Source of the DNA: an uncultured SAR86 cluster bacterium | Lineage (GTDB): Bacteria > Pseudomonadota > Gammaproteobacteria > Magnimaribacterales > D2472 | Reading direction: 5' to 3' | Length of the DNA stretch: 64,000 nucleotides | Assembly (NCBI GenBank): GCA_902605165.1 | Contig: CACLBJ010000005.1 | Location: 1-64,000 of the forward strand | In this document: in pieces, positions 1,762-26,091 of the stretch | How positions within the stretch are numbered: position 1 is the first letter of the stretch | Layout: the number at the start of each line of letters is the position of its first letter | Notes under the pieces: model-generated | Told to the model about the DNA's origin: nothing | What the model saw: the letters and a program-made list of their open reading frames with translations, nothing else | Database searches by the model: none | Program-made: the position numbers and the translations under genes

Positions 1762-1842
1762 ATGAGTAAAATTTTTAAAAAATTAGACGAATTAATGAAG
1801 GAAAGCTCTATAAGTAAAGTTTGTCTTAATTTTATAGATTAA
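1762..1842 (+). CDS. Possible 26-residue small protein or remnant of a truncated gene
   Basis: ATG at 1762 opens 26 codons ending at TAA 1840-1842. The peptide starts MSKIFKKLDELMKESS, a plausible amphipathic helix, and ends SKVCLNFID. It follows directly behind the paired inverted repeats and overlaps the end of the convergent metallophosphatase gene by 4 nt. No good Shine-Dalgarno sequence is visible (AAAATA precedes the ATG). It may be a short regulatory peptide, the N-terminal stump of a lost regulator gene, or chance. I do not recognise it. Confidence 0.25.
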   Translation: MSKIFKKLDELMKESSISKVCLNFID

Positions 1843-2795
1843 TAAGATAGCTTAACACTATTTATAGTCTCTCCCTCAATATCTAACAGTTCGACTAAAA
1901 CTGAGTTGTTGTCAACCTCGATAACTCCATAATTTTCTTTATAGTAAGTTTCATCTATTAAATATTCGTCACTTTCATCAAAAGAACTACCGGGCTTATT
2001 CATAGAGGAAGAGGTTATTTCATAAATTCCATCCATATTGTAGATACCGCCTCTATGTCTATCTCCTGAAACAAGCAATACATTATTTTTGTGATTATCA
2101 ATTAGGCTAAACAATCTTTTTTGCTCTAGAGGGAAGTTACTCCACTTCTCGTAAGGGTGATCTTTGGCAATTATTTGAATGGAGCTAAATACTATTAAGA
2201 AATCAAATTGATCTTTAAGTTCACTCTCTAACCAATTCCACTGAGAATTTCCAAGTATTGTTGCATCAGGATCTAGATTTTCAACATATTTTCCTTTTGG
2301 ACCACTTAATTTGGATCTAAAAAATCTTGTATCTAAAAATATTAGTTTAAAAACTTTTCCTTGTATTATTTTTTCTTCTGAAAAATAAATACCATCTCTA
2401 TTATGTCTTTCATCATCTAAGGGTATTTCCCAAAAATTTAGATATATCTCTTGTGATTGTCTCTTTAGAGGATATTCTGAGCCAGCATCATTCAAACCGT
2501 AATCATGATCATCCCATATAGGTAAAATTTCTAGGCTTTGCATCCACTCAGGAAAATTATTTTTCTGTTTTTTATACGCACCCACCATTTTTCTTAGAGA
2601 CCCACTTGGTAAATCACCATAGACGTTATCTCCCAAGAAAACAAAATAATCCAAGTCTTCTTTTTCAATTGCTTCCCAAATGGGTTGAGGATAATCCTGA
2701 TCAAGGCAAGAACCAAGACCAAATTTAGTAGTCTCTGCGCTTATAAAAGATAAACTTAAGCTAGATAAAAGATATAATTTGATAAAATTATTCAT
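1839..2795 (-). CDS. PhoD-like metallophosphatase/phosphodiesterase, exported
   Basis: A 318-residue protein of the PhoD/calcineurin-like metallophosphoesterase superfamily. Metal-ligand motifs are visible in order: GSC near the N-terminus, FLGDNVYGD, IWDDHDYG and SGDRHRGG towards the C-terminus. Started at the ATG at 2793-2795 it has a clean signal peptide (MNNFIKLYLLSSLSLSFISA); a longer frame upstream to 2882 would overlap the divergent lipoprotein gene and hide the signal. Likely periplasmic hydrolysis of phosphomono- or diesters, which would fit the phosphate-scavenging genes elsewhere in the window. No Pho box was seen in the very short (16 bp) divergent spacer, so regulation is unclear. 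Confidence 0.8.
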   Translation of the reverse strand: MNNFIKLYLLSSLSLSFISAETTKFGLGSCLDQDYPQPIWEAIEKEDLDYFVFLGDNVYGDLPSGSLRKMVGAYKKQKNNFPEWMQSLEILPIWDDHDYGLNDAGSEYPLKRQSQEIYLNFWEIPLDDERHNRDGIYFSEEKIIQGKVFKLIFLDTRFFRSKLSGPKGKYVENLDPDATILGNSQWNWLESELKDQFDFLIVFSSIQIIAKDHPYEKWSNFPLEQKRLFSLIDNHKNNVLLVSGDRHRGGIYNMDGIYEITSSSMNKPGSSFDESDEYLIDETYYKENYGVIEVDNNSVLVELLDIEGETINSVKLSY

Positions 2796-2811
2796 ATATT
2801 GATTATAGTTG

Positions 2812-3540
2812 ATGATGCCATATAAAAATTTTTTAATTACTTTATTTTTTCTTGCTTCATGCAGCAAAGAAGTCTCTAACACTCAACAAAATCTCTCTGA
2901 ATTAATGCAGCCAAATCAAAACTACTTTATCTCGCAATATGAATGTACTTTGAGTCATAACAATAACTTAAATGACCTTGAGCAATACATTCCTAAACTT
3001 TCTCAACTACTTAAAAATCATACCTTTAAGCATCAACTAGATTTTTATTTTTTAGATAGCCAAGACGATCAAATTAAAAATTTTATAATCAATGTAAAAA
3101 ATAAAGAATCTATTGACCAAGAGGATCTTAGCTTATTCATCAATTCTGAAAACAATATATTTCAGTGTCTTCAAAAGAATAATAATCTTGTTGCAACTAC
3201 ATTAATTTCCAAGATAGATCAGCAAGATGATATTTTCTACTTAGAAATTCTAGATTGTGAATTTGGTCCCGATTCAAACTTTGGAACGTTTAAGGTTGCT
3301 TCAGATTATTTTTATAACCTATTGAATGAGTATAGTATTTCTTATAAAGCCGATTTTCTTAACTCAGATTCTAGTTCAAGGAACTTCTACTGGCATAACT
3401 TTTTTAATTCCTCTAAAGATAGAGATAATTTTTATGCTAGCTGGATTGATAGCGATGATTCAATTGAAATTAAGGATCTTTTTTCTGAACAATCTGAGTG
3501 CTTCTCTTCAAATTCATACATTGGCTATAAAGTCTTTTAG
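2812..3540 (+). CDS. Putative lipoprotein, first of three related secreted proteins
   Basis: About 242 residues. The N-terminus MMPYKNFLITLFFLASC ends in a lipobox (L-A-S-C, Cys17), so it is probably an outer-membrane or periplasmic lipoprotein. The mature part looks like two similar halves. Each opens with a beta-strand and a Cys (QYECTLSHNNNLNDLEQYI; LDCEFGPDSNFGTFKVASDY), followed by a helix with a Tyr/Phe-rich stretch and a later aromatic strand; each half ends near another Cys (FQC, SEC). The same plan occurs in the two genes downstream. I do not recognise the family; a ferredoxin-like or dimeric alpha-beta-barrel fold is a guess. ATG 2812 or 2815 is possible; the longer frame uses TTG 2809. 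Confidence 0.6.
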   Translation: MMPYKNFLITLFFLASCSKEVSNTQQNLSELMQPNQNYFISQYECTLSHNNNLNDLEQYIPKLSQLLKNHTFKHQLDFYFLDSQDDQIKNFIINVKNKESIDQEDLSLFINSENNIFQCLQKNNNLVATTLISKIDQQDDIFYLEILDCEFGPDSNFGTFKVASDYFYNLLNEYSISYKADFLNSDSSSRNFYWHNFFNSSKDRDNFYASWIDSDDSIEIKDLFSEQSECFSSNSYIGYKVF

Positions 3541-3670
3541 TTTTTAGGTGTTTTTTTTAACTATATATTGATTTTTTCTTTTCTTCTTGAAACAATCTTA
3601 ATTGGAGATTTGAAACATCTAAGGGAGAGATATTTCTCGTCAAATAAAACTTTTTTTTCGGAGAACATAT

Positions 3671-4420
3671 ATGAAAATTTTATACATTATTCCTTTTATT
3701 TTTTCTATGAGTCTGCTTGCGCAGGATCAAGAATATAAATATGAACCAGTAAGCAACAAGGCTGAATACTATATTGGCTCATTCAATAAGGGAAAAAACT
3801 TAGATGATTTAGTTGACTGGTATGAAGACTTCGCGGACTGGGCAGAAGATCAAGGCGATACTTATGATTCAATGACAGTAGCAATCCTCACACCATATTT
3901 TAATAACGATTTATCAACACATGACACTATGTGGGTAAATACATGGCCTGGCCCAGTAGAACAATATGCAGGTTTGGATATGTGGATGAAAGAAGGTCAA
4001 GAACTATTAGAGGACTTGCCATCAACAAATTCAGCAGTAATAGATACCTGGCAATGGGTGATATCTGAACCGAGAGAAATGAAGGCAGGAAATATGATGG
4101 CTGCTGTATATTCAGAATGTTATCTTGATGAAGGTGTAAACATGAGAATGGTTTATGATTTATATAAAGATTTTGCAATTTATGCTCAAGAGAATGGAGA
4201 TACTGTAGGAAGGAAACTGATTGTTCCATCATCAAAAACAACTTCTGATGCAGACTTCCATAGATTGTTATACACATCAAGCGTTGCAGAAATGGGAACT
4301 AATGCTGCACTTTTTTGGGATAAGCTATCTGATTCGGATGCTGTTAAGGCTATGCAAGGATGGGAATGCAAAAATGCTGTCGAATATATGGGCATGGCTA
4401 TGAGAGCAGCGGAGCAATGA
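3671..4420 (+). CDS. Secreted duplicated-domain protein, second of three paralogs
   Basis: 249 residues with signal peptide (MKILYIIPFIFSMSLLAQ, cleavage near LAQ/DQ) and a good ribosome site (CGGAGA) 8-13 bases before the ATG. Repeat 1 begins YYIGSFNKGKNLDDLVDWYEDF; repeat 2 begins YSECYLDEGVNMRMVYDLYKDF. Both continue to an aromatic strand (MWVNTWPGP / LLYTSSVAEM) and a closing Cys (GWECKN in repeat 2). Repeat 1 lacks the opening Cys. The protein overlaps the next gene by ATGA, implying translational coupling. Function unknown; a small-ligand-binding or structural role outside the inner membrane is inferred only from export and fold-like pattern. Confidence 0.65.
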   Translation: MKILYIIPFIFSMSLLAQDQEYKYEPVSNKAEYYIGSFNKGKNLDDLVDWYEDFADWAEDQGDTYDSMTVAILTPYFNNDLSTHDTMWVNTWPGPVEQYAGLDMWMKEGQELLEDLPSTNSAVIDTWQWVISEPREMKAGNMMAAVYSECYLDEGVNMRMVYDLYKDFAIYAQENGDTVGRKLIVPSSKTTSDADFHRLLYTSSVAEMGTNAALFWDKLSDSDAVKAMQGWECKNAVEYMGMAMRAAEQ

Positions 4421-5196
4421 TGAAAAGAATATTTACATTATTAATTTTCTTTGGATCTATTTCGGTAGTTTCGGAAACGTCGGAGCAATATATTCATAGA
4501 TCAGAATTTTTCTTTTGCAATTATAATGAAGGTAAAAATTATAATGATTTGCTTGCTGAACAAGCTCCATATGAAGATTTTTTAAAAGAATATGATCTTC
4601 AATACAATAGAATTAATCTAACTCCTATTTGGGACAATGAGCAGGAGTATGACTATGTAATGTGGGGTAATTGGCCAACCGGTCAAGATCAGTATACAGA
4701 ATGGGGCGCTTACATGAATGATTATCCCGAATGGGCAGAAAAGAATGGTGTTCCATCTCAAGTTGCTGGTAAGTGTAAGTCAACCTCATCGATGAGATTT
4801 CATTCAGTACTTCGTCTCCGAATACCTATGGAGGAAAGAGACGAAAGAATATTTACTGATTGGAGAACATGTAAGTTAACGGATGATGCTGATATTTCTG
4901 AATTAAAAGCTCTTTATGCCAAACAAGAAAAGTTAGCAAAAGACTTTGGATTAAATGGATGGGGTGTAAGTTTCTTTACTCCTTACAGAGGTATTCAAGA
5001 TGATCCAGGTTGGGATTTAATCATGATGACACATTGGTATAACGCAGAAAGCAGGGTAAATATGATTAGTTCTTATAGAGACTACACAGATTTGCTTAGA
5101 GAATCGGGAATATATGAAGAGAGATCTAAGCATATTGATTCATGTTCAGGTGCAAATACATATCAAGGTCATATGGTTTACAACACTCATAAGTAA
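4417..5196 (+). CDS. Secreted duplicated-domain protein, third of three paralogs
   Basis: 259 residues from the ATG at 4417 (or 4420), which overlaps the preceding stop; a frame opening at 4360 lies within the upstream gene and is unlikely. Signal peptide MMKRIFTLLIFFGSISVVSE. Repeat 1: FFFCNYNEGKNYNDLLAEQ, then YDYVMWGNWPTGQ, closing with GKCKS. Repeat 2: DWRTCKLTDDADISELKALY, then DLIMMTHWYN, closing with DSCSG. The Cys pairs at the start and end of each repeat could form disulfides in the periplasm. Same architecture as the two upstream genes. A strong terminator follows directly, so 3671-5196 is probably one transcription unit. Confidence 0.65.
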   Translation: MMKRIFTLLIFFGSISVVSETSEQYIHRSEFFFCNYNEGKNYNDLLAEQAPYEDFLKEYDLQYNRINLTPIWDNEQEYDYVMWGNWPTGQDQYTEWGAYMNDYPEWAEKNGVPSQVAGKCKSTSSMRFHSVLRLRIPMEERDERIFTDWRTCKLTDDADISELKALYAKQEKLAKDFGLNGWGVSFFTPYRGIQDDPGWDLIMMTHWYNAESRVNMISSYRDYTDLLRESGIYEERSKHIDSCSGANTYQGHMVYNTHK

Positions 5197-5210
5197 TACC
5201 TGTAAAACCT

Positions 5211-5240
5211 AAAAAAGGGGCTTATGCCCCTTTTTTCTTT
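5211..5240 (+). terminator. Rho-independent terminator after the three-paralog genes
   Basis: AAAAAAGGGG-CTTATG-CCCCTTTTTT hairpin followed by more T. The A-tract/T-tract symmetry would let it work on either strand. Confidence 0.88.
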
Positions 5241-5246
5241 TATAAT
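5241..5246 (+). promoter_or_regulatory. -10 box of the tRNA-Gly promoter
   Basis: A perfect TATAAT lies 12 bases before the first base of the tRNA. No convincing -35 hexamer is visible, because that position falls in the preceding terminator hairpin. Confidence 0.5.
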
Positions 5247-5258
5247 ACAAACATCTTT

Positions 5259-5334
5259 GCGGGTGTGGTGTTAACGGCTAGCACAATAGCCTTCCAAGCT
5301 ATTGGTACGGGTTCGAATCCCGTCACCCGCTCCA
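5259..5334 (+). tRNA. tRNA-Gly (anticodon TCC)
   Basis: Acceptor arms GCGGGTG (5259-5265) and CACCCGC (5324-5330), discriminator T and encoded CCA (5332-5334). Anticodon stem ATAGC/GCTAT (5286-5290, 5298-5302) with loop CTTCCAA; anticodon TCC at 5293-5295. T-loop GGTTCGAATCC is present. It reads GGA/GGG codons. Single gene flanked by two terminators. Confidence 0.97.
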
Positions 5335-11934: not shown

Positions 11935-12630
11935 ATGTCGCATCATATTTTAGTAGTAGAAGACGAACCAGATATAAACAAAACCGTTTCTTATAATTTA
12001 GCTAATGAAGGTTTTCACCCCGTAAGTGCTCTCAATCTTCAAGAAGCTGATGATCAACTTTCATCAAATAACATATCTCTAATAATTCTTGATTTAATGC
12101 TTCCTGATGGTTCGGGATTAGACTTTTGTAAAACCATCAAGTCATCAAATATGTATAAAAATATTCCTGTAATAATTGTTACAGCAAAGGGAGATGAGGT
12201 TGATAAAGTGGTTGGTTTTGAGCTTGGCGCTGATGATTATGTCACAAAACCTTTTAGCGTAAGAGAGCTTATGTTGCGGATCAAAGCCATATTAAAAAGA
12301 AATGTGAAGGAAGGAACCTCAAAGTCCAGTTCAGTCATTGCTTTTGATGGCTTGAATATTAATGACGACTCTCATGAGGTTTTTATTAATGGTGTTGAGA
12401 TAAATTTAACTGCCTTGGAATTTAAACTTCTAAAGCATCTAGTTGATAGAAGAGGTAGGGTTCAAACACGTGACCAGCTTTTAGAAGAAGTTTGGGGATA
12501 CTCATCTCATGTTACTACCAGAACCGTTGATACTCACGTTAAAAGATTAAGAGAAAAGCTTAAAGAAATGGGTAAACATATCCAAACAATTAGAGGTGTT
12601 GGATATAGGTTTTCTAGGTCTTCTGAATAG
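11935..12630 (+). CDS. phoB: Phosphate-regulon response regulator PhoB
   Basis: 231-residue OmpR/PhoB-type regulator. Receiver domain: acidic pocket Glu9-Asp10, phospho-acceptor Asp53 in ILDLMLPDGSG, Thr in VTAKG and Lys in YVTKPFS. The C-terminal winged helix includes LTALEFKLLKHL and the recognition region TTRTVDTHVKRLREKL. Lies 6 bases before the kinase gene, the phoB-phoR order. A Pho-box-like repeat in front of the PiT permease gene at 23.2 kb supports assignment to phosphate control; the length and order also fit PhoP-type regulators, which remains the alternative. Confidence 0.85.
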   Translation: MSHHILVVEDEPDINKTVSYNLANEGFHPVSALNLQEADDQLSSNNISLIILDLMLPDGSGLDFCKTIKSSNMYKNIPVIIVTAKGDEVDKVVGFELGADDYVTKPFSVRELMLRIKAILKRNVKEGTSKSSSVIAFDGLNINDDSHEVFINGVEINLTALEFKLLKHLVDRRGRVQTRDQLLEEVWGYSSHVTTRTVDTHVKRLREKLKEMGKHIQTIRGVGYRFSRSSE

Positions 12631-12636
12631 AAGCTA

Positions 12637-13845
12637 ATGTTTTCTTTTCTCAGAATCTTCACTGTTTTCTTAGTTTCATTTGTATCGTTCTTTTTAATTC
12701 TGAACAACTTTGTTGGAGCTTACAGTTCTAATTTTGAAATAAGCATCACAATTATTTTATTTTCATTATTTTCATCACTCGTTGTTTGGAGGATTAATCG
12801 CAAAAGAATTAAATTGATTGCAAAACAAACAGATTCTTTTGGAAGTGTTTTAGATAACTTGGGAGAGGGTGTTCTGCTAGCTAGCACATCTGGTGATATT
12901 GCATATGCAAATGAAAGCATGCAAAGGATACTTGAGCTTAAAACTCTTAAAAATAAAAATATTAATGATTTAAAAATAAATGCGTTAAAGAATATGTTCA
13001 AAAATGCTTTAAAAGATGGCTTATTCCAATATGAATTTCAGATGCAAGGTAAAAGTTCAAATCCTAAATGGTTGCTTGGATCTATAAATAGATCAAAAAC
13101 AGCAAATGAAATCATTCTTGTTATTAATGATGTTACTGAATTAAGGGCAAATGCTTCTATGAGAAGAGACTTTATTTCGAATTTATCGCACGAATTAAGA
13201 ACTCCCGTTAGTGTTATTTCTGCAAATGCTGAAACTTTGGTGGGAGGGGCTATTGATAATAAGAAGGATGCAAAAACCTTCTCTAAAGCTATCCTTCATA
13301 ACGCAGAGAGGATCTCAGGTTTGGTAAGTGATTTAATAGACTTATCAAGGATAGATTATGGCGAGATTCATTTAGATCTTAGTGAATTAAATGTGTGTGA
13401 TGTTGTGAAAATTGTTAAAGATTCACAATACAGTTCTGCCAAAAGAAAAGGAATAAATATCAATTTCATAGAGAAACAACTACCCAATGTTCTAGCTGAC
13501 AGAGCTGCTGTTGAAAGAATCATCACGAATCTTTTAGATAATGCTATTAAATATACTAAAGCTAATGATGAAGGTGAGGTTGAGATTGAAGTAAAGAAAG
13601 AGAAGAAGTTCATTAAAGTTTTAGTTAAAGATCTTGGCATAGGGATACATAGTTCTGATCAAGAGCTAGTTTTTAAGCGATTCTATCGAACACCAGATGC
13701 AAGGGCTAGCCAAAAAACTGGAAGCGGTCTTGGGCTTGCAATTGTAAAAAATCTCACGATAAGCCTTGGTGGTCAAGTTGGTGTCATGAAAAATATGCAT
13801 AAAGGCAGCACCTTTTGGTTTACACTCCCCATTTACAATTCCTAA
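12637..13845 (+). CDS. phoR: Phosphate-regulon sensor histidine kinase PhoR
   Basis: 402 residues. Two membrane helices at the N-terminus (about 5-50) with almost no periplasmic loop, then a PAS domain (LDNLGEGVLLASTSGDI), then HisKA with phospho-acceptor His185 in NLSHELRTPVSV, then the ATPase core: N box NLLDNAIKYT, G1 DLGIGI, F box FKRFYR, G2 GSGLGLAIVK. The absent sensory periplasmic domain plus PAS is typical of PhoR, which senses through the Pst/PhoU system rather than directly. No pst or phoU genes occur within this window. Confidence 0.87.
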   Translation: MFSFLRIFTVFLVSFVSFFLILNNFVGAYSSNFEISITIILFSLFSSLVVWRINRKRIKLIAKQTDSFGSVLDNLGEGVLLASTSGDIAYANESMQRILELKTLKNKNINDLKINALKNMFKNALKDGLFQYEFQMQGKSSNPKWLLGSINRSKTANEIILVINDVTELRANASMRRDFISNLSHELRTPVSVISANAETLVGGAIDNKKDAKTFSKAILHNAERISGLVSDLIDLSRIDYGEIHLDLSELNVCDVVKIVKDSQYSSAKRKGININFIEKQLPNVLADRAAVERIITNLLDNAIKYTKANDEGEVEIEVKKEKKFIKVLVKDLGIGIHSSDQELVFKRFYRTPDARASQKTGSGLGLAIVKNLTISLGGQVGVMKNMHKGSTFWFTLPIYNS

Positions 13846-13909: not shown

Positions 13910-14293
13910 ATGAGTAAAGTAAATCTAAAATATGTGTTCTACTTTTTAGTGATATCACTATCAACATATCTTCTTGTAAACACTTTAATTTTGAATAGTT
14001 CTAATAAAATAGAGGACTTTTCTGTAATTCGACCTATTAATGTTCAAAATAGTTCTATACAAGGCGATATCTCTAATACACCTCCTGCAAGCTTTAACTA
14101 TGAGTTATCCGCTGTAAGACTGGGTGACGAAAATACATCAGTGATTGTTAAAAAAGGTGGCAAAGAATACGTAGTTCAGATTAATGAGTTATTAGAAAAT
14201 AAATATAAATTAATAAAAGTAGATAAAAGTGTAATAATTTTTGAATTTCAAGGTAAAAAATTTACAATAAATAATAGGTTTAGTAATGAATAA
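13910..14293 (+). CDS. gspC: Type II secretion protein GspC, minimal form
   Basis: 127 residues: short cytoplasmic start, one membrane helix (about 8-28), a spacer, then a small periplasmic domain (YELSAVRLGDENTSVIVKKG... VIIFEFQGKKFTI) with the alternating-strand pattern of the GspC homology region that contacts the secretin N0 domain. There is no PDZ or coiled-coil domain after it, whereas classic GspC proteins run to 270-300 residues. Position as first gene before gspD, with an 8-nt overlap, supports the call. A TAAAAT at 13886-13891 may be a -10 for the operon. Confidence 0.75.
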   Translation: MSKVNLKYVFYFLVISLSTYLLVNTLILNSSNKIEDFSVIRPINVQNSSIQGDISNTPPASFNYELSAVRLGDENTSVIVKKGGKEYVVQINELLENKYKLIKVDKSVIIFEFQGKKFTINNRFSNE

Positions 14294-16133
14294 CTTTTTT
14301 AAAAAATCTTTATTAGTGACGACATTATGCGCATTTTTCATTGTGCATGCGCAAGAAACTTTTATTCTTAATTATGAAGATGTCGATATTAAAAAAGTAA
14401 CTCAAGATATAGCTAATTTTTCAAAGAAAACTATTATTCTTGATCCAAGAGTAAAAGGGAAAGTCACAATCTTTTCCAACTCATTACTATCCTCTGATGA
14501 AGTTTGGGATGTTTATTTACGGACAATACAAGTTAATGGCTTTAGCGCCCTCAATGATGAAAATTTTGTTAGGATTGTTCCTGAAAATGAAGCTACGAGA
14601 GATCAAAACTCTGGAGAATCCGGTGGAGAATTTATTACAAGAGTTATCGAGCTTAAAAATAGATCTTCAGTAGAGCTTTTACCACTTATTAAACCAATCG
14701 CAGGCAGACAAGCGAATGTTTCAAGTATTGCATCAATTAACTCTTTGATTATCGTTGATAGAAAAAGCAATGTTGAAAGAATAACGGAAGTAGTTAAATC
14801 ATTAGATGAAGATAATACTGCAAGTGTTACTATTGTTGACTTAAAGAATTTATCATCAGTTGAAGCAGTTAGAATCCTTGAGAAGTTAAAATCTCAAAAT
14901 AATCCTACAATAAATAACTTTGTTGCCATTTCTTTTAGTGCATCAAACTCTGTAATAGTATCTGCCAACTCAATAACTACAAACATAATTAAAGAAACAC
15001 TGCAGCAATTAGATGCTGACGCAATTAGTGAAGGCTCAGTTGCTGTTATATACCTTAAATATGCAAATGCTGAGGAGGTTGCTGGAATAGTAAGCTCCAT
15101 AGCTTCAAGATTTATTTCTTCAGAATCAGAAAAGCCAATCGTTACATATCATGCACCAACAAATTCAGTTGTTGTGTCCAGTGATGAATCTAATATAGCA
15201 ACCATAAAAAATCTTATATCTAAGCTTGATATTAGAAGGGCTCAAGTATTAGTAGAAGCTATAGTAGTTGAGCTTTCAGAAACAGCAGCAAGAAGTTTAG
15301 GTGTAGAAACTATTTTTGCCGGTGCAGAGGATGGAGAAATACCTATTGGGATTACTAGATTCCAAAATGGAACAGGACCTGATCTGCTAGGCTTAACAGG
15401 GTCTGCGATTGAATCTGGGGATAATGCTAACTTTTCAAATATTGCAGCTAATTCGCTTTTAAACTCTCAGGGCATAATTGCAGGTATTGGAAGAATATCA
15501 GAGGATGATGACAGTATGATAGCGATAATTAATGCTATAGATGCAGATAAGAATTCTAATATTTTAACTACCACATCACTGCTAGCAATGGATAATGAGG
15601 AAGCTTCTACAGTTATTGGTCAAGAAATTCCCATTACAACAGGTGAAAGTTTAGGTTCAAATAATACAAATCCTTTCAGGACAACCTCAAGAGAGGAGGT
15701 TGGTATAAAACTTTCAATAAAGCCACAAATTAATGAAGGAAATTCAGTTATTTTAGAGATAAAACAGGAGGTTTCTGGTGTTGCTGGTCCTCTGACTGGG
15801 ACTACTGATTTAATTACAAACAAAAGAACAATAGAAACAACTGTTTTAGTAGACAACAATCAAATTATTGTATTGGGTGGATTAGTTGATGAAGATATAC
15901 AGGAAGATATTCAGAGAGTACCTGTCCTTGGCTCAATTCCAATTCTTGGCAAACTATTTCAATCATCTAGTGAGTCAAAAGTTAAAAAGAATTTAATGGT
16001 TTTTTTAAGACCTAAGATTTTAGTTGACTCGGAATCGGTTTCTCAGATTTCGACTGAAAAGTATAATTTTATTAAAGCAGAACAGTTACTCAAGCAACAA
16101 TCTAAGCTAATAGACCTCACAGAAGATAAATAG
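14286..16133 (+). CDS. gspD: Type II secretion outer-membrane secretin GspD
   Basis: 615-residue secretin precursor with signal peptide (ends VHAQ/ETF). Order of domains: N0 (LNYEDVDIKKVTQDIANFSKKTII), N1-N3 repeats (ELKNRSSVELLPLIKPI; VDLKNLSSVEAVRILEKL; IYLKYANAEEVAGIVSSI), then the C-terminal barrel with TTTSLLAMDNEEASTVIGQEIP and the signature VLVDNNQIIVLGGLVDED...PVLGSIPILGKLF. It forms the multimeric outer-membrane gate for folded exoproteins. The S-domain for pilotin binding is short, and no pilotin gene is seen nearby. Followed directly (0 nt) by gspE. Confidence 0.96.
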   Translation: MNNFFKKSLLVTTLCAFFIVHAQETFILNYEDVDIKKVTQDIANFSKKTIILDPRVKGKVTIFSNSLLSSDEVWDVYLRTIQVNGFSALNDENFVRIVPENEATRDQNSGESGGEFITRVIELKNRSSVELLPLIKPIAGRQANVSSIASINSLIIVDRKSNVERITEVVKSLDEDNTASVTIVDLKNLSSVEAVRILEKLKSQNNPTINNFVAISFSASNSVIVSANSITTNIIKETLQQLDADAISEGSVAVIYLKYANAEEVAGIVSSIASRFISSESEKPIVTYHAPTNSVVVSSDESNIATIKNLISKLDIRRAQVLVEAIVVELSETAARSLGVETIFAGAEDGEIPIGITRFQNGTGPDLLGLTGSAIESGDNANFSNIAANSLLNSQGIIAGIGRISEDDDSMIAIINAIDADKNSNILTTTSLLAMDNEEASTVIGQEIPITTGESLGSNNTNPFRTTSREEVGIKLSIKPQINEGNSVILEIKQEVSGVAGPLTGTTDLITNKRTIETTVLVDNNQIIVLGGLVDEDIQEDIQRVPVLGSIPILGKLFQSSSESKVKKNLMVFLRPKILVDSESVSQISTEKYNFIKAEQLLKQQSKLIDLTEDK

Positions 16134-17639
16134 ATGTCTGATATACCTAATGATGCTATGGCTGAAACATCAAGTATTCTTCCTTACGACTTCGTAAAAC
16201 AGAATAATATCTTTGGAATAGATAATAATGGCGAAATTAAGATTTATTCAACTTCAGAGCTAAGTTTTGATATTCATCAGGAGCTATTAAGGTATATAGG
16301 TAAATCATTTGAAGTAGAAATTTGTAATAGTGAGGAGTTAAATAACCTTATAACAGCAAACTTTTCTGTAATTTCTCAAAACTCAGAACTTTCAGAAGAA
16401 CTTAAAGATAATTTTGATCTTAAAACTTTTGCAGGAACAATTTCAGCTACAGAAGATCTGTTAAGTGGGAGCAACGATGCACCTATCATTAAGCTTATAA
16501 ATGGTATTTTAAGTCAGGCAATAAAGTTAAGAGCATCAGATATCCACTTTGAGCCTTATGAGGACTCTTTATCAGTGAGATACAGAATAGATGGAATACT
16601 TCAAGAAGTTATATCCCAAGATCCTAGACTCACACCATTAATAATTGCCAGACTAAAAGTAATTTCCAAACTTGATATATCTGAAAGGAGATTGCCGCAG
16701 GATGGAAGAGTTTCGTTATCTCTTGGAGATAAAAATGTTGATGTTCGTGTTTCAACTCTACCATCTACATATGGAGAAAGAATTGTATTAAGACTCTTAG
16801 ATAAACAATCAGCACAAATTAATATTAATGATCTTGGTTTACCACAAATAATACTTTCAACTTATAAGAAGTCTTTAAGTGAATCCGAAGGTATTATCTT
16901 AGTTACCGGACCAACTGGCTCAGGAAAAACTACTACTCTTTATGCTGGCCTTAGAGATCTAAGTGATTCATCTCAAAATATTCTCACTGTTGAGGATCCA
17001 ATAGAATATACCTTAAAAGGCATTGGCCAAACGCAGGTTAATCAAAAAACTGGATACTCTTTCGCTACGGGATTGCGTGCAATGCTTAGGCAAGATCCTG
17101 ATGTTGTGATGGTAGGAGAAATAAGAGACACAGAAACAGCGCAAATTGCCATACAGGCCAGTTTAACGGGCCACCTTGTACTATCAACTGTTCATACAAA
17201 TAGTGCTGTTGGTGCTATTACTAGACTCAGAGACATGGGAATAGAATCATTTTTGATATCTTCTAGTTTAAAAACAGTAATTTCTCAAAGACTTGTAAGA
17301 AGGCTATGTGATAGTTGCAAAGTTAAAACAACTATAAACAAAGATATAGCTGATTTATTTGGTTTAAAGCACAATCTTGAAGTTTATGATCATGTAGGAT
17401 GTGATGATTGTAATGGAACAGGATACAAAGGAAGGATTGCTGTTGCTGAGTGCGTAAATGTTGATAAAACCATAAAAGACATGATTCATAACGAAAAGTC
17501 AGAGAATGAGATTAATGAGTATGTGTTTAAAAACACTCCCTCAATAAATTCTTCGTGCTCGAATCTTCTTATTGAAGGTATAACATCTTGCGATGAACTA
17601 ATTAGATCTAACAATATAAAAGAAGATGCCTTCGTATAG
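16134..17639 (+). CDS. gspE: Type II secretion assembly ATPase GspE
   Basis: 501-residue cytoplasmic ATPase powering pseudopilus assembly. An N1E-like region (about 1-100) binds GspL. The C-terminal ATPase core has Walker A GPTGSGKTTT near residue 260, an Asp box VGEIRDTETAQIA, a His box (VLSTVHTN) and the arginine-rich ASDIHFEPYEDSLSVRYRIDG. A Zn tetracysteine is present: LCDSCK...GCDDCNGTGYKGR, as in GspE/PilB. Overlaps gspF by 14 nt. Confidence 0.96.
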   Translation: MSDIPNDAMAETSSILPYDFVKQNNIFGIDNNGEIKIYSTSELSFDIHQELLRYIGKSFEVEICNSEELNNLITANFSVISQNSELSEELKDNFDLKTFAGTISATEDLLSGSNDAPIIKLINGILSQAIKLRASDIHFEPYEDSLSVRYRIDGILQEVISQDPRLTPLIIARLKVISKLDISERRLPQDGRVSLSLGDKNVDVRVSTLPSTYGERIVLRLLDKQSAQININDLGLPQIILSTYKKSLSESEGIILVTGPTGSGKTTTLYAGLRDLSDSSQNILTVEDPIEYTLKGIGQTQVNQKTGYSFATGLRAMLRQDPDVVMVGEIRDTETAQIAIQASLTGHLVLSTVHTNSAVGAITRLRDMGIESFLISSSLKTVISQRLVRRLCDSCKVKTTINKDIADLFGLKHNLEVYDHVGCDDCNGTGYKGRIAVAECVNVDKTIKDMIHNEKSENEINEYVFKNTPSINSSCSNLLIEGITSCDELIRSNNIKEDAFV

Positions 17640-18819
17640 CTATAAGGCTTTTGACTCTGAAGGTTCAATTCAATCAGGATATATAAATGCCGATAGTGAA
17701 AGATCGGCAAGAAAAGAAATAAAAAGTCTTAATTTAATACCCCATAAACTTAAAAAAATAAAATCTCAAACTGCCAAAAGATATAAGATCAAAAATAAAG
17801 ATTTGGTTCTTGCTACCAGACAGATTGGCACACTCCTTGAGGCAGCTGCTCAAATTGATGAGGCTTTAAAGATGACTGCTGAACAAGTCAAAAATAAAGA
17901 TTTAAAGAATATATTATTTAATTTAAGAGATGAAATAATTCAGGGCAAAAGGCTAGGGGATGCAATGGAGGCTTACCCTCAGGTTTTTGACAATACATAT
18001 ACATCATTAATTAAAGCTGGTGATACTTCAGGAAGACTTATTGAGATGTTTAAATCTTTATCCGATTATCTTGAGGAAAGTTTATCTATTAATCAGAAGG
18101 TTCGGACTGCTTTAACATATCCATTCATTCTTTTTTCTTTTTCAATAATAGTAGTAATTTCGTTACTAACTTTTGTTATGCCGCAGGTTGTAAATCAATT
18201 CGTTAAATCAGGCGTTGATCTGCCATTGTTAACATCAGTATTAATGAATATATCTTCTAATATGATTTATATAATCCCATCTATCATACTGATATTAGGA
18301 GTTTCTTTTTTTTATTATAAGAAGTTACTAACTACTGAAAAGGCAGTAAATATTCATAGAATCTTTCTTAAAATTCCAATTTTTGGAGGATTCTTATTAA
18401 AATCTGAGACTGAGAGATTCAGTAGTACTATGTACTTATTGATGTCATCAGGGATAGTTCTAGATGATGCACTTCAAGAAACATCTCAAGTTTTGAACAA
18501 TGCTTATCTAAAAGATCGCCTTAATAAAATAATAAAGTCAGTAAAAGAAGGTTCTGATTTTTCTCGTGCTCTAACGCGCGAGCAAATATTCCCAGATATC
18601 TTTAACCAACTTATTTCCAGTGGTTACAGATCTGGCAATCTTGCACCTATGTTCAAAAAAGCTTCTGATTTTATGAAATCTGAGATTGAAACAACACGAT
18701 CAACTGTTCTATCTCTCATAGAGCCATTAATCATTATTATTATGGGTGGATTTATTCTTTTAATCGTTATGGCTATACTTATTCCTATAATGCAAATGAA
18801 CACACTAATATTAAATTAA
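17626..18819 (+). CDS. gspF: Type II secretion inner-membrane platform protein GspF
   Basis: 397 residues. Begins MPSYSYKAFDSEGSIQSGYI, the conserved GspF/PilC opening. Two homologous T2SSF domains (LVLATRQIGTLLEAAAQIDEAL and FSSTMYLLMSSGIVLDDAL) each precede membrane helices; three TM segments lie near residues 165-190, 215-235 and 365-390. The motif TYPFILFSFSIIV starts TM1. It is the inner-membrane rotor-like platform under the pseudopilus. Confidence 0.95.
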   Translation: MPSYSYKAFDSEGSIQSGYINADSERSARKEIKSLNLIPHKLKKIKSQTAKRYKIKNKDLVLATRQIGTLLEAAAQIDEALKMTAEQVKNKDLKNILFNLRDEIIQGKRLGDAMEAYPQVFDNTYTSLIKAGDTSGRLIEMFKSLSDYLEESLSINQKVRTALTYPFILFSFSIIVVISLLTFVMPQVVNQFVKSGVDLPLLTSVLMNISSNMIYIIPSIILILGVSFFYYKKLLTTEKAVNIHRIFLKIPIFGGFLLKSETERFSSTMYLLMSSGIVLDDALQETSQVLNNAYLKDRLNKIIKSVKEGSDFSRALTREQIFPDIFNQLISSGYRSGNLAPMFKKASDFMKSEIETTRSTVLSLIEPLIIIIMGGFILLIVMAILIPIMQMNTLILN

Positions 18820-18821
18820 TT

Positions 18822-19241
18822 ATGAAAAAAGGATTTACTCTAATTGAGCTCATGGCAGTAATTGTGATACTTGGCATATTAGCAACAGTCGTTGCAGTTA
18901 ATGTATCTCCTTTTCTCCAAAGAGCGAACTTAGAAAAAGTAAGAGCAGATATTTCACAAATTGAGAAAGCGCTAGAACTATATAAATTTAATGAACTGAC
19001 TTATCCCACAACAGATCAAGGAATACAGTCATTAGTTGCTCCTCCGTCAGATCTTAAACGACCATCACTCTATCCTGAAGGAGGATACATAAAGTCTTTT
19101 CCTCAAGATCCATGGGGTAGAGAATATCTTTATCTGTATCCTGGCTTAAAAAACTCATCCTATGATGTCTACACTTTAGGTGCTGATGGAGTGGAAGGAG
19201 GTACAGGTGAAAATGCAGACCTCGGTAATTGGCTTAAATAA
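18822..19241 (+). CDS. gspG: Type II secretion major pseudopilin GspG
   Basis: 139 residues. Prepilin signal MKKG/FTLIELMAVIVILGI with Glu at +5, the recognition site for GspO. The C-terminal domain carries the GspG consensus: LYKFNELTYPTTDQGIQSLV, GGYIKSFPQDPWGREYLY and a calcium-loop-like DVYTLGADGVEGG. It is the main subunit of the periplasmic pseudopilus. Confidence 0.97.
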   Translation: MKKGFTLIELMAVIVILGILATVVAVNVSPFLQRANLEKVRADISQIEKALELYKFNELTYPTTDQGIQSLVAPPSDLKRPSLYPEGGYIKSFPQDPWGREYLYLYPGLKNSSYDVYTLGADGVEGGTGENADLGNWLK

Positions 19242-19713
19242 AAAACCAGGATTTACATTAATAGAATTACTTATTGTAATTGTAATTATTGGAATAATGT
19301 CATCAATACTTCTTTTAAATACCAATATTGTTAATATTAGTAGCTCGCCTAGGACTTTAGAGGAAAGCTTTTCGGAAATTTCCCAAGAAAGCATAATTCG
19401 CGGAAAAGTTTTAGGATGGTATGCAAATACAAATGAACAGGCTATTTATGTAATAGCTAATGAAGAAACTGAAATAATCTCAAAACCCATATATAGCTAT
19501 ACCTGGAATGAATTTACTGAATTTGAAAAAGAAATAGAGACAAGCGATGGTCTTAAATTCAAGTTATCTAATGATGATTTAGATTTACCTTATATCTTAT
19601 TCTATCCATCTGGCGAAACAACAGGGGCAAAATTCACTTTTTATAACAATAATCAGAAATATAATTTTGTTCTTACTCATGGAGGAGAATTCTTAAGAAT
19701 TGATGAATTTTAA
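19213..19713 (+). CDS. gspH: Type II secretion minor pseudopilin GspH
   Basis: About 166 residues from the ATG at 19213, inside the 3' end of gspG (29-nt overlap). The prepilin site is KKPG/FTLIELLIVIVIIGIM, so the leader is longer than in GspG. An earlier ATG at 19180 would give a leader of 24 residues and is less likely. The remainder (ETEIISKPIYSYTWNEF, ending LTHGGEFLRIDEF) fits the beta-rich GspH domain. A minor tip or shaft subunit. Confidence 0.82.
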   Translation: MQTSVIGLNKKPGFTLIELLIVIVIIGIMSSILLLNTNIVNISSSPRTLEESFSEISQESIIRGKVLGWYANTNEQAIYVIANEETEIISKPIYSYTWNEFTEFEKEIETSDGLKFKLSNDDLDLPYILFYPSGETTGAKFTFYNNNQKYNFVLTHGGEFLRIDEF

Positions 19714-20065
19714 GAGAGGCTTTAGCTTAATAGAGGTTTCCGTTTCGCTTTTAATACTAAGCGTCGCTGTAATGTCGGTTTATCAAACATTAAGTTCAAC
19801 AACCTTATCAATCTTCTCTTTAGAAAATAGAGTAATTGCTAGAGAGATAGCAAATAACAGGATTTCTTTAATTAACACTCTAGAAAAACCATTTAATCAA
19901 AAAAATAGAAGCGGCTCCTTGATGTTTTATGGAGATGAGTGGGAGTGGAAAGAAACATTTAATGAAGCTCCAATGAAATCTTATATTGAATATCAAATAG
20001 AAATAACCAAAAAAGATAACACCCAAGTTATATATGAAACAAAGGGTTTTTTAAAAAAGAATTAA
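19703..20065 (+). CDS. gspI: Type II secretion minor pseudopilin GspI
   Basis: 120 residues from ATG 19703 (a TTG three bases earlier could add one residue). Prepilin site MNFKRG/FSLIEVSVSLLIL with Glu +5. Downstream ANNRISLINTLEKP recalls the A-x-N-x-x-x-x-L of GspI. Overlaps gspH by 11 nt. Forms the tip complex with GspJ and GspK. Confidence 0.88.
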   Translation: MNFKRGFSLIEVSVSLLILSVAVMSVYQTLSSTTLSIFSLENRVIAREIANNRISLINTLEKPFNQKNRSGSLMFYGDEWEWKETFNEAPMKSYIEYQIEITKKDNTQVIYETKGFLKKN

Positions 20066-20653
20066 ATGAAAAAAGGTTTCACACTTATAGAAGTATTAAT
20101 ATCTTTAGTTATTCTTTCAATAATTGCGATTGTTTCTACAAACTTTCTTCAATCATCAATTGATTTAAGGAATCAAAGCAAATCAAAAGTAGACGATATA
20201 AAAGTATTTAACTTAGGAGTGAGCACGATAAGAAGAGATCTTATGTCAGCAGTGAATTTACCTATGCGAGATAACTTCGGGAATCAGCTACCTAATTTTA
20301 TAGGTAGCAATACAGACAAAAAAATTACTTTCCTAGGTTTTATTAATAGAATTGATAGTTCGAGATCGTCTATCTCAAGAATTGAATATTTATTCGATGA
20401 TACAAAATTTATCAGAAGAGTTTACTTTACAGCAGATCCTTATGACTACGATGATCATATAGATTCAGTTATTTTCGACAATATTGAAGATATCGAAATA
20501 TCCTTTTTATCCGACAACAGATGGTTCACAGAGTGGCCTGCTGGACAAACTGCAGCATATAAAATTCCAAAACTTGTGAAAATTGAGATAAATGATAAGG
20601 ACAGAGATTTTGAAATAATTATTAATCCGAATATAGAGTATGTATACAGATAA
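20066..20653 (+). CDS. gspJ: Type II secretion minor pseudopilin GspJ
   Basis: 195 residues. Prepilin site MKKG/FTLIEVLISLVILSI. It then shows the GspJ pattern of an N-terminal helix followed by RRDLMSAVNLPMRDNFG and a late strand DNIEDIEISFLSDNRWFTEWP, which resembles the GspJ motif around a conserved W. Directly abuts gspI (0 nt) and overlaps gspK by 14 nt. Confidence 0.9.
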   Translation: MKKGFTLIEVLISLVILSIIAIVSTNFLQSSIDLRNQSKSKVDDIKVFNLGVSTIRRDLMSAVNLPMRDNFGNQLPNFIGSNTDKKITFLGFINRIDSSRSSISRIEYLFDDTKFIRRVYFTADPYDYDDHIDSVIFDNIEDIEISFLSDNRWFTEWPAGQTAAYKIPKLVKIEINDKDRDFEIIINPNIEYVYR

Positions 20654-21602
20654 TAAAAGAGGAGTAGTGTTAATCTCAGTGCTACTGATTGTTCTCATTC
20701 TTTCTGGAATAAGTGTATCTCTCGGTGAGATATTTTTTAAATCTATCAAAAGGTCAACATATATTGAATTTCAATCAACATCGATCCAGCTTCAAAGAAA
20801 TATGGAAAGTCTTGGCATAGATCTAATCGATCAAAATTTAAGATATAACAAAGGATACCTTACAAAAAATGATCAACTACTGAAGGATGAAATATTTTTT
20901 GAAAGTAATGGATTCCTTATTCGCTCTAGACTAGTAGATACATCAAATTGTTTTAACTTAAATTCATTATTAATTTCTGCCGAAAATAACAAGCTTCCTA
21001 ATGATAGATCTATCTCTGTCTTGAGTAATATATTGTTATTTCTAAATTATGAAGACAGACAAATTGATTCATTAATTGACCAGATAATTGATTGGGTTGA
21101 TTATGATGATCAGCCAAGATCAAACGGATATGAAGATTATTTTTATACAGGACCCATAAATGAACCAAGACAATATACATCCAAAAGAACTCTTTATGAT
21201 TTCTCAGAATTAAATAACTTACCAGCTTCAAGAGAGTTTAATTTAAATGATCTGAAGAAATACATATGTGTTATTCCATATTCCCAAAAAACAAATATAA
21301 ATGTAAATACACTTGAGTTAGAAGACGCTCTTGTTCTTGCTTCTTATTTAGGTATTTCAATAGATGATGCAGAATATTTGATCATGAATAACCCTATTGA
21401 TGGATTCAAAACCATTGAAGAATTCAAAGATGCATTTACAAACTACTTGCCTGATAAAAGCATGAATAATTTTTCAACTAACACAGAAAGTTTTTATTTA
21501 ATGTCTGATACGATTTATGAAAATTATACATTCAAAAGCAAATCTTTAATTACAATAGAGAAGGGAAGAGCTACTATTACAACAAGAACATATAATAACT
21601 AG
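20640..21602 (+). CDS. gspK: Type II secretion minor pseudopilin GspK
   Basis: 320 residues. Prepilin site DNKRG/VVLISVLLIVLILSG; there is no Glu at +5 (Ser instead), which is usual for GspK. Contains CFNLNSLL near residue 99 and IDQIIDWVDYDDQPRSNGYED, the conserved GspK region that caps the pseudopilus tip, and the later INVNTLELEDALVLASYLG resembling the helix-hairpin-helix-like SAM part. Ends one base before gspL starts. Confidence 0.92.
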   Translation: MYTDNKRGVVLISVLLIVLILSGISVSLGEIFFKSIKRSTYIEFQSTSIQLQRNMESLGIDLIDQNLRYNKGYLTKNDQLLKDEIFFESNGFLIRSRLVDTSNCFNLNSLLISAENNKLPNDRSISVLSNILLFLNYEDRQIDSLIDQIIDWVDYDDQPRSNGYEDYFYTGPINEPRQYTSKRTLYDFSELNNLPASREFNLNDLKKYICVIPYSQKTNINVNTLELEDALVLASYLGISIDDAEYLIMNNPIDGFKTIEEFKDAFTNYLPDKSMNNFSTNTESFYLMSDTIYENYTFKSKSLITIEKGRATITTRTYNN

Positions 21603-22709
21603 ATGAAGCAATATATTATTTCAACAAATTTTTCTTCAGATAAGCTTAATTTAGTTTGCTTTGAAGGTAATAAAAAGATTCAGGAAGAAGAAATATCTTT
21701 AATTGATTTAAAAAATAATATTGATCCTGCTTCAATAATTTATCTTCTTTTAGATAGCTCAAAGATTTCAACATTCAACTTTGAAAAAGAAGAAGGCGAA
21801 ACAAAAGATAAATATGAAGCAAGGTTCTTTGCAGATAAAGAAGATATTCTTGTAAATGATATTTCTAACCAGGAATTTTTCTCTTTCTCAGAAAATAACA
21901 ATGATTTAGTTTTTCTCATTGATAAGGAATATTATGAAGATATTCAGAATGAGCTAAGTAAACTTAATAATAAAATCTTTTTAATTCCAGAATATTTCTT
22001 GCTCGGTGAAACAGATACAGGTGTTTCAGTAAATACCAAACATAAATCATTAATTAAGCTTTCAGACGGTAGAGGATTCTCCATACCAAAAGAACACTCT
22101 AATTCTTTTTTAGAGTCTATAGCTATTGATGACCTTGAAGAAAAATCAGGAGATTTAGAGGAGTTGCAAGAACAATTTCTTGCATCAAATGACTCTAGTA
22201 TTAATTTCTTTAAATTTAGGCCGACTATTGCAAATGTTTTAAACAAATTGATGATAACTAAAAGAGATGTTATAGCTCTGTCTGCAATATTTTTAATAAT
22301 GGTTAGTTTTCCTTTTATCCAAAAAAATATCCTTCAAAGTCAAATAGATAATTATAAAAAGGAGACTCTTATAATTTTTAAAACGCTCAATCCAAGCTTT
22401 AATAGAGTGATTAACGCTCGTGCACAGATTGATCAACTTCTTGCAAATCAACAAACGCAATCTATTGAAAGATATAATTTTGATAATTCGTACTTCAAGT
22501 ATATTGATAGATTCAATTTAGATTATGTTAAATCTACTCAGATTGTAATTGAAACCCAACAACTTGTTATTGAAATTGATGATATGCCTGCTTCTCAGTT
22601 TAATCTGGCGAAAAGTTTATTTACCAACTTTGGTGTGGTTCTTATTAATGAGGAAATTAACGAGAATGGTAATAAGGTCTCAGGGAAACTTACATTCAGG
22701 TATTCATAA
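21603..22709 (+). CDS. gspL: Type II secretion protein GspL
   Basis: 368 residues. N-terminal cytoplasmic part (about 1-215) with acidic, actin-like-fold character, a single membrane helix near residues 219-238 (VIALSAIFLIMVSFPFI), and a C-terminal periplasmic ferredoxin-like part. GspL links GspE to the membrane via GspM. Sequence identity to the family is weak by eye; the call rests on this topology and the place between gspK and gspM. One base overlaps gspM. Confidence 0.8.
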   Translation: MKQYIISTNFSSDKLNLVCFEGNKKIQEEEISLIDLKNNIDPASIIYLLLDSSKISTFNFEKEEGETKDKYEARFFADKEDILVNDISNQEFFSFSENNNDLVFLIDKEYYEDIQNELSKLNNKIFLIPEYFLLGETDTGVSVNTKHKSLIKLSDGRGFSIPKEHSNSFLESIAIDDLEEKSGDLEELQEQFLASNDSSINFFKFRPTIANVLNKLMITKRDVIALSAIFLIMVSFPFIQKNILQSQIDNYKKETLIIFKTLNPSFNRVINARAQIDQLLANQQTQSIERYNFDNSYFKYIDRFNLDYVKSTQIVIETQQLVIEIDDMPASQFNLAKSLFTNFGVVLINEEINENGNKVSGKLTFRYS

Positions 22710-23287: not shown

Positions 23288-24535
23288 ATGGAAACTCTTT
23301 TTCTTGATCCTACCCTAATACTTCTAATTGCTGCTTTTGCAGGCTTCTTTATGGCTTTTGGAATTGGAGCCAATGATGTTGCAAATGCAATGGGGACTTC
23401 AGTTGGTAGCAAGGCAATAACATTTAAACAAGCAATATTAATTGCTGCTGTCTTTGAATTTCTTGGCGCTTATCTTGCTGGAGGTGAAGTTACTTCAACT
23501 ATTAGAAAAGGCATAGTTGATCCAGATCTATATGTAGGTCAAGAAAATATATTTATTATTGGAATGATGTCAGCATTACTGGCAGCTGCAACTTGGTTAC
23601 TAATTGCAAGTTCAAAAGGTTGGCCTGTTTCAACTACACACTCAATTGTTGGATCTATTGTTGGCTTTGTGATCGTTTCTGCTGGGTTTTACGCAGTATC
23701 ATGGGGAAAAGTTGGAACTATTGCTGCCAGCTGGGTTACTTCCCCAGTATTTGCAGGAACATTTTCATTCTTTATTTATCTTAGTGCAAAAAAGTTTATC
23801 TTGGATAGGAGAGACCCATCCCAGGCAGCAGTCTCATTAATTCCCATATATAGCTTTTTTGTTGCGATCATAATTGCTTTAGTAACAGCAAGAAAAGGAT
23901 TAAAGCATGTTGGCCTTCCTCTATCTGATAGTGAGGTGTTGCTAGTTACAGTTATATTTGGTGTTGTGGTTTCAATAATCACAGCCATTCTTCTCCGACT
24001 CAATAGTGAAAAAATAAGAGAATATGGAGTTGAGTCTGCATTTGCTATTTTAATGATTGTTACAGCTTCAGCTATGGCCTTTGCCCATGGATCAAATGAT
24101 GTTGCAAATGCAATTGGTCCAATGTCAGCAATTATAAGCGTTACTTCCGAAGGAGCTATTGGTGCTAAATCAGCGGTTAGTCCCTATGTTCTTCTTATCG
24201 GTGGTGCAGGTATAGTTTTTGGATTAGCGATGCTTGGTGGCCGAGTTATCAAAACTGTTGGTACAAAGATAACAACACTAACTCCTAGTTTAGGGTTTTC
24301 TGCTGAAATGGCCGCAGCATCGACAGTTGTTGCCGCAACGTACATTGGTTTTCCAATCTCGACTACTCATACACTTGTTGGAGCGGTCATAGGAGTTGGT
24401 TTAGCAAAAGGTGTATCGCATCTGGATTATTCATCCATTGGAAGAATAATCCTTTCATGGCTTGTCACCATTCCAGTGGGAGCAGCTTTAACAGCATTCT
24501 TCTTCTTTACAATTAGATTTATATTTGGAGTTTAA
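23288..24535 (+). CDS. pit: PiT-family inorganic phosphate permease
   Basis: 415 residues, about ten membrane helices. Two PiT signatures, GANDVANAMG near residue 27 and HGSNDVANAIGP near residue 266, mark the duplicated halves and the phosphate-binding site. Na+- or H+-coupled phosphate import across the inner membrane; also can carry metal phosphates. It lies downstream of a Pho-box-like repeat. This differs from E. coli PitA, which is not in the Pho regulon; Pho-controlled low-affinity PiT genes are known in some marine bacteria. Four bases before the porin gene. Confidence 0.94.
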   Translation: METLFLDPTLILLIAAFAGFFMAFGIGANDVANAMGTSVGSKAITFKQAILIAAVFEFLGAYLAGGEVTSTIRKGIVDPDLYVGQENIFIIGMMSALLAAATWLLIASSKGWPVSTTHSIVGSIVGFVIVSAGFYAVSWGKVGTIAASWVTSPVFAGTFSFFIYLSAKKFILDRRDPSQAAVSLIPIYSFFVAIIIALVTARKGLKHVGLPLSDSEVLLVTVIFGVVVSIITAILLRLNSEKIREYGVESAFAILMIVTASAMAFAHGSNDVANAIGPMSAIISVTSEGAIGAKSAVSPYVLLIGGAGIVFGLAMLGGRVIKTVGTKITTLTPSLGFSAEMAAASTVVAATYIGFPISTTHTLVGAVIGVGLAKGVSHLDYSSIGRIILSWLVTIPVGAALTAFFFFTIRFIFGV

Positions 24536-24539
24536 AATA

Positions 24540-25442
24540 ATGAGGGCCAAAAAGCTGTTTGCTTTATCCGCATTAATTTTCTTTACTTCAAATATTACAG
24601 CCAGTGTTTCATTTTATGGCAAATTAAATTTTAGTTATGAGAACGAAGATTCTGCAGAAGAATCAAATACTGATTTTGTAAATAATGCATCAAGAATTGG
24701 TATTAAAGGTAATTTTAAATTAAATGACAAATACTCATTAATTTTCCAGGCAGAGAATGAAATTGATCCCACCGATGGCAAAGCTGACGGCGAGAAGGTT
24801 TTTAAAGAGAGAAATACGTTCGTTGGTATCAAAGGTGATTTTGGTAAACTTTACGCAGGAATCTATGATTCTGCCTTAAAGTTAGGACAATTAAAAGTAG
24901 ACCTATTTAACGACACAAGAGCAGATATAAAATATATTTTACAAGGCGAAAATAGGATGAATAGCTTTGTAGGATATGAAAGTCCTGAATTAATTGAGGG
25001 CATGAAAGTAAGCTTAAACTCTATCAGCCAATCATCAGGCGACTTTTATTCTTACTCAATTACATATAAAACAGAGAATATTAATTCAGCATTATCCGTA
25101 GATAAAGATGCTAAGGGTTTTGATAGCATAAGACTTGCTTTAATGTTTGCTGTTTATAACTTTGATATTGGATTATTGCTGCAAAACTCTAAAAAGATAT
25201 CAACAAATAAAAAAGATGAAGGTCATATCTTTAGCATTAACAGAAAGCTATCTGATAAAAGTTCTATATATTTTCAAAATGCTAAATCTGATATGAAAAT
25301 AGATGATGGAGAGCAAAGATCATTTGGTTATACCTATAAGATTAATGACAAGACCAAGATTTTTATACACCAGTCTTCAAGAGAGTCTTCCAACAAAGGA
25401 AAGGTCGATTATATTTCTGTTGGAACAGAATATAAATTTTAA
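24540..25442 (+). CDS. Outer-membrane porin (Gram-negative porin type)
   Basis: 300 residues from the ATG at 24540; a frame from 24525 would overlap pit. Signal peptide ends NITAS/VSFYGKLN, followed by alternating beta-strands and a terminal aromatic (TEYKF), which is the BAM-recognition signature. The features VNNASRIGIKGNF, FVGIKGDFGKLYAGIYD are typical of general porins of the OmpC/porin_4 family. Transcribed with pit, 4 bases apart, so it may serve to bring phosphate or small phosphoesters through the outer membrane. It has no visible lysine-rich phosphate-specific loop of OprP type. Confidence 0.88.
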   Translation: MRAKKLFALSALIFFTSNITASVSFYGKLNFSYENEDSAEESNTDFVNNASRIGIKGNFKLNDKYSLIFQAENEIDPTDGKADGEKVFKERNTFVGIKGDFGKLYAGIYDSALKLGQLKVDLFNDTRADIKYILQGENRMNSFVGYESPELIEGMKVSLNSISQSSGDFYSYSITYKTENINSALSVDKDAKGFDSIRLALMFAVYNFDIGLLLQNSKKISTNKKDEGHIFSINRKLSDKSSIYFQNAKSDMKIDDGEQRSFGYTYKINDKTKIFIHQSSRESSNKGKVDYISVGTEYKF

Positions 25443-25486
25443 TTCCTTTTAATTTACTTTTTGTAACATTTGTTCATAATTGTTGT

Positions 25487-26083: not shown

Positions 26084-26091
26084 TAAAAATT

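Follow-up and report, generated by a model that had tools for sequence, protein, structure and literature searches.

Three adjacent genes (ORF1, ORF2, and ORF3) in the genome of an uncultured SAR86 bacterium encode exported proteins of one family, each predicted to carry two fused ferredoxin-like domains of the dimeric alpha-beta barrel (DABB) type. SAR86 bacteria are among the most abundant uncultured bacteria of the surface ocean, and their streamlined genomes measure about 1 Mb. It is probable that the three are tandem-DABB proteins locked by disulfides and that each handles a small molecule, whether in the periplasm, outside the cell or, for ORF1, on the outer membrane. The fold itself is already known. 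What appears to be new is the sequence family, its export, its conserved Cys pairs, its expansion throughout the order, and the exchange of its alleles; no description of the family or of any of these features was found in the open-access papers searched.

Organization of the locus

The window, that is, the whole stretch of 64,000 nucleotides analysed here, is contig C5 of a genome of about 1.0 Mb. The initial annotation had reported three neighbouring exported ORFs, one lipoprotein and two proteins with plain signal peptides, and all three are found on the plus strand between a divergent PhoD-like phosphatase gene and a tRNA-Gly gene. ORF1 (2815–3540) encodes a predicted exported lipoprotein of 241 aa. 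Its lipobox, LFFLASC16-S, was read from the sequence, and the Ser at position +2 suggests delivery to the outer membrane. ORF2 (3671–4420) and ORF3 (4420–5196) encode proteins of 249 and 258 aa, respectively, each with a putative plain signal peptide. Export starts of either kind, signal peptide or lipobox, recur in the sequences of other family members.

ORF2 and ORF3 are coupled, as had been claimed, by an ATGA overlap of stop and start codon (4417–4420); the overlap lies within ATGATGA, and ORF3 may start at 4417 or at 4420. The terminator noted after ORF3 is represented by a terminator-like hairpin of 11 pairs followed by a T-run (5211–5236, plus strand), 15 bases past the ORF3 stop, although sites that combine a hairpin with a T-run are no more numerous across the region than in shuffled sequence. 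Next comes tRNA-Gly(tcc) (5259–5334, plus strand). On the other side, the PhoD-like gene (1839–2798, minus strand; PF09423, E 1.2e-19) is a conserved neighbour and adjoins the ORF1 homologue in most ORF1 loci. The start codons of the PhoD-like gene and ORF1 (2798 and 2815) point apart across a gap of only about 16 bases; thus each promoter lies inside the other gene, or one of the starts is misplaced.

One family with an internal duplication

The relationship between ORF2 and ORF3 is evident both from pairwise comparison (blastp E 6e-8 over 113 aa) and from alignment of the ORF2 group with ORF3 (hhalign E 2.1e-18, 239 columns). ORF1 gave no match to ORF2 or ORF3 in pairwise blastp; a profile of 55 ORF2/ORF3-type proteins, containing no ORF1 homologue, found ORF1 in its own genome at E 1e-6. 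The internal duplication proposed for each protein is well supported. Profiles of half 1 and half 2 of the ORF2/ORF3 group match at E 1.4e-23, with a score of 120 against a shuffled maximum of 17, and each of the five half pairs tested outscored all 60 column-shuffled controls (60/60). In profile comparison, half 2 of ORF1 matches other halves at E 2.7e-8 and 7.8e-11. Half 1 of ORF1 is the most diverged; its best match, at E 3e-6, is to the half 2 profile of the other proteins, and the structural model carries much of the weight in assigning its fold. The half motifs quoted in the initial annotation all fall at the beta1-alpha1 junction of their halves, as judged from the models of ORF1 and ORF2 and from alignment for ORF3.

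The three genes are not the product of a recent local triplication, since the tree places ORF1, ORF2, and ORF3 in three old subfamilies. The suggestion that the family is undescribed holds at the level of sequence, as no match was found among PDB sequences and no family match above cut-off in Pfam, NCBIfam, or PHROGs, but not at the level of fold, which is the known DABB. The assignment of fold and family is close to certain.

Predicted fold and structural relatives

AlphaFold2 models of ORF1 and ORF2 were built from family alignments and reached a pLDDT of 85.8 and a pTM of 0.79 for ORF1 and a pLDDT of 93.3 and a pTM of 0.87 for ORF2. In each model, DSSP finds two beta-alpha-beta-beta-alpha-beta (ferredoxin-like) units. 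Whole-chain TM-scores of the models to tandem DABB structures are about 0.5–0.73, which suggests that the two units may pack sheet to sheet as a barrel; the predicted fold is a DABB in tandem. Proteins of this fold mostly form the barrel as dimers. The shared fold put forward in the initial annotation is thus seen as the same two-repeat topology in ORF1 and ORF2, both of which match PDB entry 2PGC, and is predicted for ORF3 from its alignment with ORF2. The Foldseek matches lie at 6–13% identity and a TM-score of about 0.5–0.7, a range that fixes the fold and not the function.

2PGC is the first match of the ORF1 model, followed by tandem putative monooxygenases, and it has the best listed TM-score for the ORF2 model (TMt up to 0.73). 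It is a tandem DABB protein from a marine metagenome (JCVI_PEP_1096685590403), assigned to a novel marine sequence cluster and solved by structural genomics in 2007 (PMC2557142). Like ORF1 and ORF2, it has two ferredoxin-like domains, in a chain of about 205 residues, but it shares only 8–11% identity with them in structural alignment. An hmmsearch of PDB sequences with two family profiles (E<=10) returned neither 2PGC nor any other sequence match to the family.

The strongest Foldseek E-values of ORF2 (down to 6e-8) are to coproheme decarboxylases and chlorite dismutases, which have tandem ferredoxin-like domains as well. These matches raise the idea of an exported heme enzyme or carrier of the chlorite dismutase/DyP (CDE) type. 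However, among the 113 two-domain family members, His fails to reach 45% conservation in any column, so that the proximal heme His of the CDE superfamily is missing, and there is no match to CDE models in Pfam; the family has Cys pairs instead. A heme protein is therefore very improbable, and a heme enzyme was rejected on the lack of a conserved His. A periplasmic, exported monooxygenase of the cofactor-free ABM-like kind is improbable too, to a lesser degree. ORF1 does match, in Foldseek, the ABM-type tandem proteins 3f44 and 3mcs, whose tandem DABB chains of about 215 residues resemble ORF1, together with PenE and an anthrone oxidase-like protein. Yet the family gives no match to PF03992, to other ABM models, or to NCBIfam monooxygenase models, and it differs from 3f44 and 3mcs, with which it has no sequence match, in being exported and in carrying Cys pairs. 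In ABM enzymes, the catalytic residues vary.

DUF1330 and DUF1428, which are single DABB domains of the same fold class, touch the family in two ways. Weak similarity to DUF1428 (E 0.017, below the curated cut-off) is seen in one member, and a DUF1330 gene lies close to some others of the family; unlike them, this neighbour has no export signal that we could see.

Conserved Cys pairs

The best-conserved columns among the 113 two-domain members are Cys, Pro, Gly, Trp, and Asp, all of which may be purely structural. The Cys pair of half 2 is invariant (113/113); in ORF2 it corresponds to C150 and C233, which are also invariant in the 55 ORF2/ORF3-type proteins (55/55). In half 1, 76 members have both Cys and 37 have neither, while none has a single one, and the same both-or-neither pattern is seen throughout the 55 ORF2/ORF3-type proteins. 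On the tree, this pattern requires two changes, that is, two coupled losses, and the covariation thus rests on two independent events. ORF1 (C44–C118 and C148–C229) and ORF3 (C34–C119 and C147–C240) have both pairs, the four Cys of ORF1 being invariant within its group, whereas ORF2 has lost the half 1 pair and kept that of half 2.

In the models, one Cys of a half sits close to where the first strand ends and the other where the last strand begins. The initial annotation was thus right about a first-strand Cys, but the second one precedes the last strand rather than closing the half, and a Cys pattern in every half does not extend to half 1 of ORF2. Pairing and model positions together support one disulfide per half. 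From the conserved pairs and the models, we consider these disulfides very likely.

Distribution across genomes

The family is present in 144 of 151 genomes of the host's order, with 1–9 matches each. At E<=0.001, 87 of the 107 genomes in the host's family contain a match to the ORF1 profile; most of these matches are orthologues, and some are paralogue hits. Outside the order, the distribution is patchy. A class-wide sample of about 365 other genomes gave two matches, one of them fragmentary and discarded, as it does not reach beyond the signal-peptide end of a 316-aa protein that looks unrelated (G545, locus L137). One other gammaproteobacterial order has the family in 31 of 147 genomes, where exported proteins with a single domain and a length of about 130 aa also occur, and a phylum-wide sample of 398 genomes contained one single-domain protein. 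These single-domain relatives point to a likely origin of the family by fusion or duplication. A phage origin was considered and dropped, as tblastn found no match in 50,697 phage records.

The genome studied here also encodes a single-domain exported relative of about 144 aa (G000:C2:176767–177003, loci L147 and L173; E 3.7e-5). The largest array seen consists of five consecutive family genes in G028 (L169:3941–7784).

Gene neighbourhood

ORF1 lies in a conserved block with genes for an esterase, a photolyase-related protein, PhoD, prepilin peptidase, and GGT. The cellular roles in this block are mixed, and function could not be read from it. In the other gammaproteobacterial order, a conserved gene, labelled class-V aminotransferase-like from its sequence alone, immediately precedes the family gene in seven genomes (L229, L239, L185, L225, L228, L230, and L240). 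Neighbouring genes vary from one subfamily to the next and again beyond the order, and context therefore names no substrate.

Membership in the Pho regulon, with PhoD next door and PhoB/PhoR-like genes in the window, was rejected: there is no Pho box nearby, and matches in the window are below chance. The PhoB/PhoR-like two-component pair itself (11935–13845) varies between sister species, the kinase being 66–67% identical in G002 and G009 as against 93% in G007. About 9 kb from the locus is a type II secretion operon (14286–22706), with GspD/E/F/G/K at 14286–21602 and a GspL-like gene following; ORF2 and ORF3, which carry putative signal peptides and conserved paired Cys, are possibly secreted by this system. 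Farther away, a protein of 2065 aa with subtilase, cadherin, and Ig-like domains (54497–60694) is 60–88% identical among sister species.

Exchange of ORF2–ORF3 alleles

Six sister species were compared (G000, G001, G002, G007, G008, and G009). Nucleotide identity falls from about 85–99% in the flanks to 55–76% over most of a cassette that comprises ORF2 and ORF3 (3600–5258) and has tRNA-Gly(tcc) near its right edge. Flank identity among sisters is about 92–94%; for single flanking proteins it is mostly 80–99%, against 54–62% for ORF2 and 71–86% for ORF3. Between G002 and G009, nucleotide identities are 94–100% throughout almost the entire flanks and 55–76% across most of ORF2–ORF3, with dS values of 1.7–2.1 in ORF2/ORF3 as against 0.03–0.14 in ORF1, PhoD, and GGT. 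Faster protein evolution does not account for the divergence of ORF2, as dS rises along with dN; the raised dS instead indicates that the ORF2 alleles were imported. The ORF2 tree rejects the six sisters as one clade (AU test, delta lnL 86, p 7.4e-6), placing ORF2 of the more distant G005 with G001/G009, whereas the tree of GGT, a gene 2 kb away, recovers them as one group with a support of 100. The histories of ORF2 and ORF3 also disagree: in G002, ORF2 is of the G007/G008 type, and ORF3 is nearest to that of G000. Among 51–56 window genes, with a median identity of 90–94% in the comparison with G001, G002, and G007, ORF2 ranks lowest in identity to G001 and G002 and third lowest to G007; this ranking misses ORF2 of G009, which straddles two stretches and is 62% identical in the locus comparison. 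The tRNA gene is a possible conserved anchor for recombination.

Exchange is seen elsewhere as well. Another family member, at C2:185 kb, is 65–79% identical among sisters and has a second tandem copy in some of them, with gain and loss. A second exchanged block in the window, at about 22.7–27.2 kb (23288–27228), carries genes for a phosphate permease, a porin, a TetR-type regulator, and a phytase; it is 98–100% identical to G001 and has 41–63% identity or no full-length match to G002, G007, and G009. Between the esterase and PhoD genes, a stretch common to G002 and G009 (1601–2100) differs from the other sisters and is another local replacement or insertion.

Two of the three genes are swapped repeatedly between related species, which hints at a function that faces the cell's surroundings. 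The proteins could be exposed interaction proteins, secreted or surface-held scaffolds whose variable faces meet phages, grazers, competitors, or prey macromolecules, a reading that we regard as the main though unlikely alternative. We give the same weight to its proposed dynamics, in which frequency-dependent selection would maintain the diversity of alleles and homologous recombination near tRNA-Gly would swap them. The low rank of ORF2, its imported alleles, the conflict between the ORF2 and GGT trees, and the variable member at the second locus all fit such a role. However, dN/dS is 0.04–0.31 where computable, indicating purifying selection, and a crude whole-gene test shows no sign of positive selection; low dN/dS speaks neither for nor against recognition. 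Moreover, the closest species show no exchange of ORF1, and other window parts, such as the phosphate genes, are exchanged too, so that exchange is not special to surface proteins. It is rather improbable that SAR86 has an order-wide, multi-copy recognition or antagonism system that acts at the surface or outside the cell, is directed at phages, grazers, or competitors, and has its alleles kept diverse and traded between species by recombination. Such a system would be built on a fold whose other known roles are those of enzymes and ligand-binding proteins.

Proposed mechanism

We favour the handling of a small molecule by exported tandem-DABB proteins, which would proceed as follows. Two fused ferredoxin-like domains would allow one chain to form the barrel alone. 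One disulfide would staple each half, tying the far end of the first strand to the beginning of the last; in ORF2, only half 2 would be stapled. ORF1 would be tethered to the membrane as a lipoprotein, and ORF2 and ORF3 would be released to the periplasm, or to the outside via the type II secretion system. Without heme, the DABB pockets would bind a small, probably hydrophobic, molecule or convert it; paralogues and exchanged alleles may differ in ligand or partner. Binding or conversion of small molecules is the usual activity of DABB relatives (the ABM, IsdG, and Cld families). Taken by itself, a like function for the proteins studied here is suggested by analogy and stays tentative, a little short of an even chance.

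Significance

The family can be defined by two DABB domains, one Cys pair in each, and an export signal, and this definition is directly testable with the fold, the single-domain relatives, and the subfamily list at hand. Nearly every SAR86 genome sampled keeps 1–9 copies despite streamlining, and the exchange of ORF2–ORF3 alleles points to a role under ecological selection.
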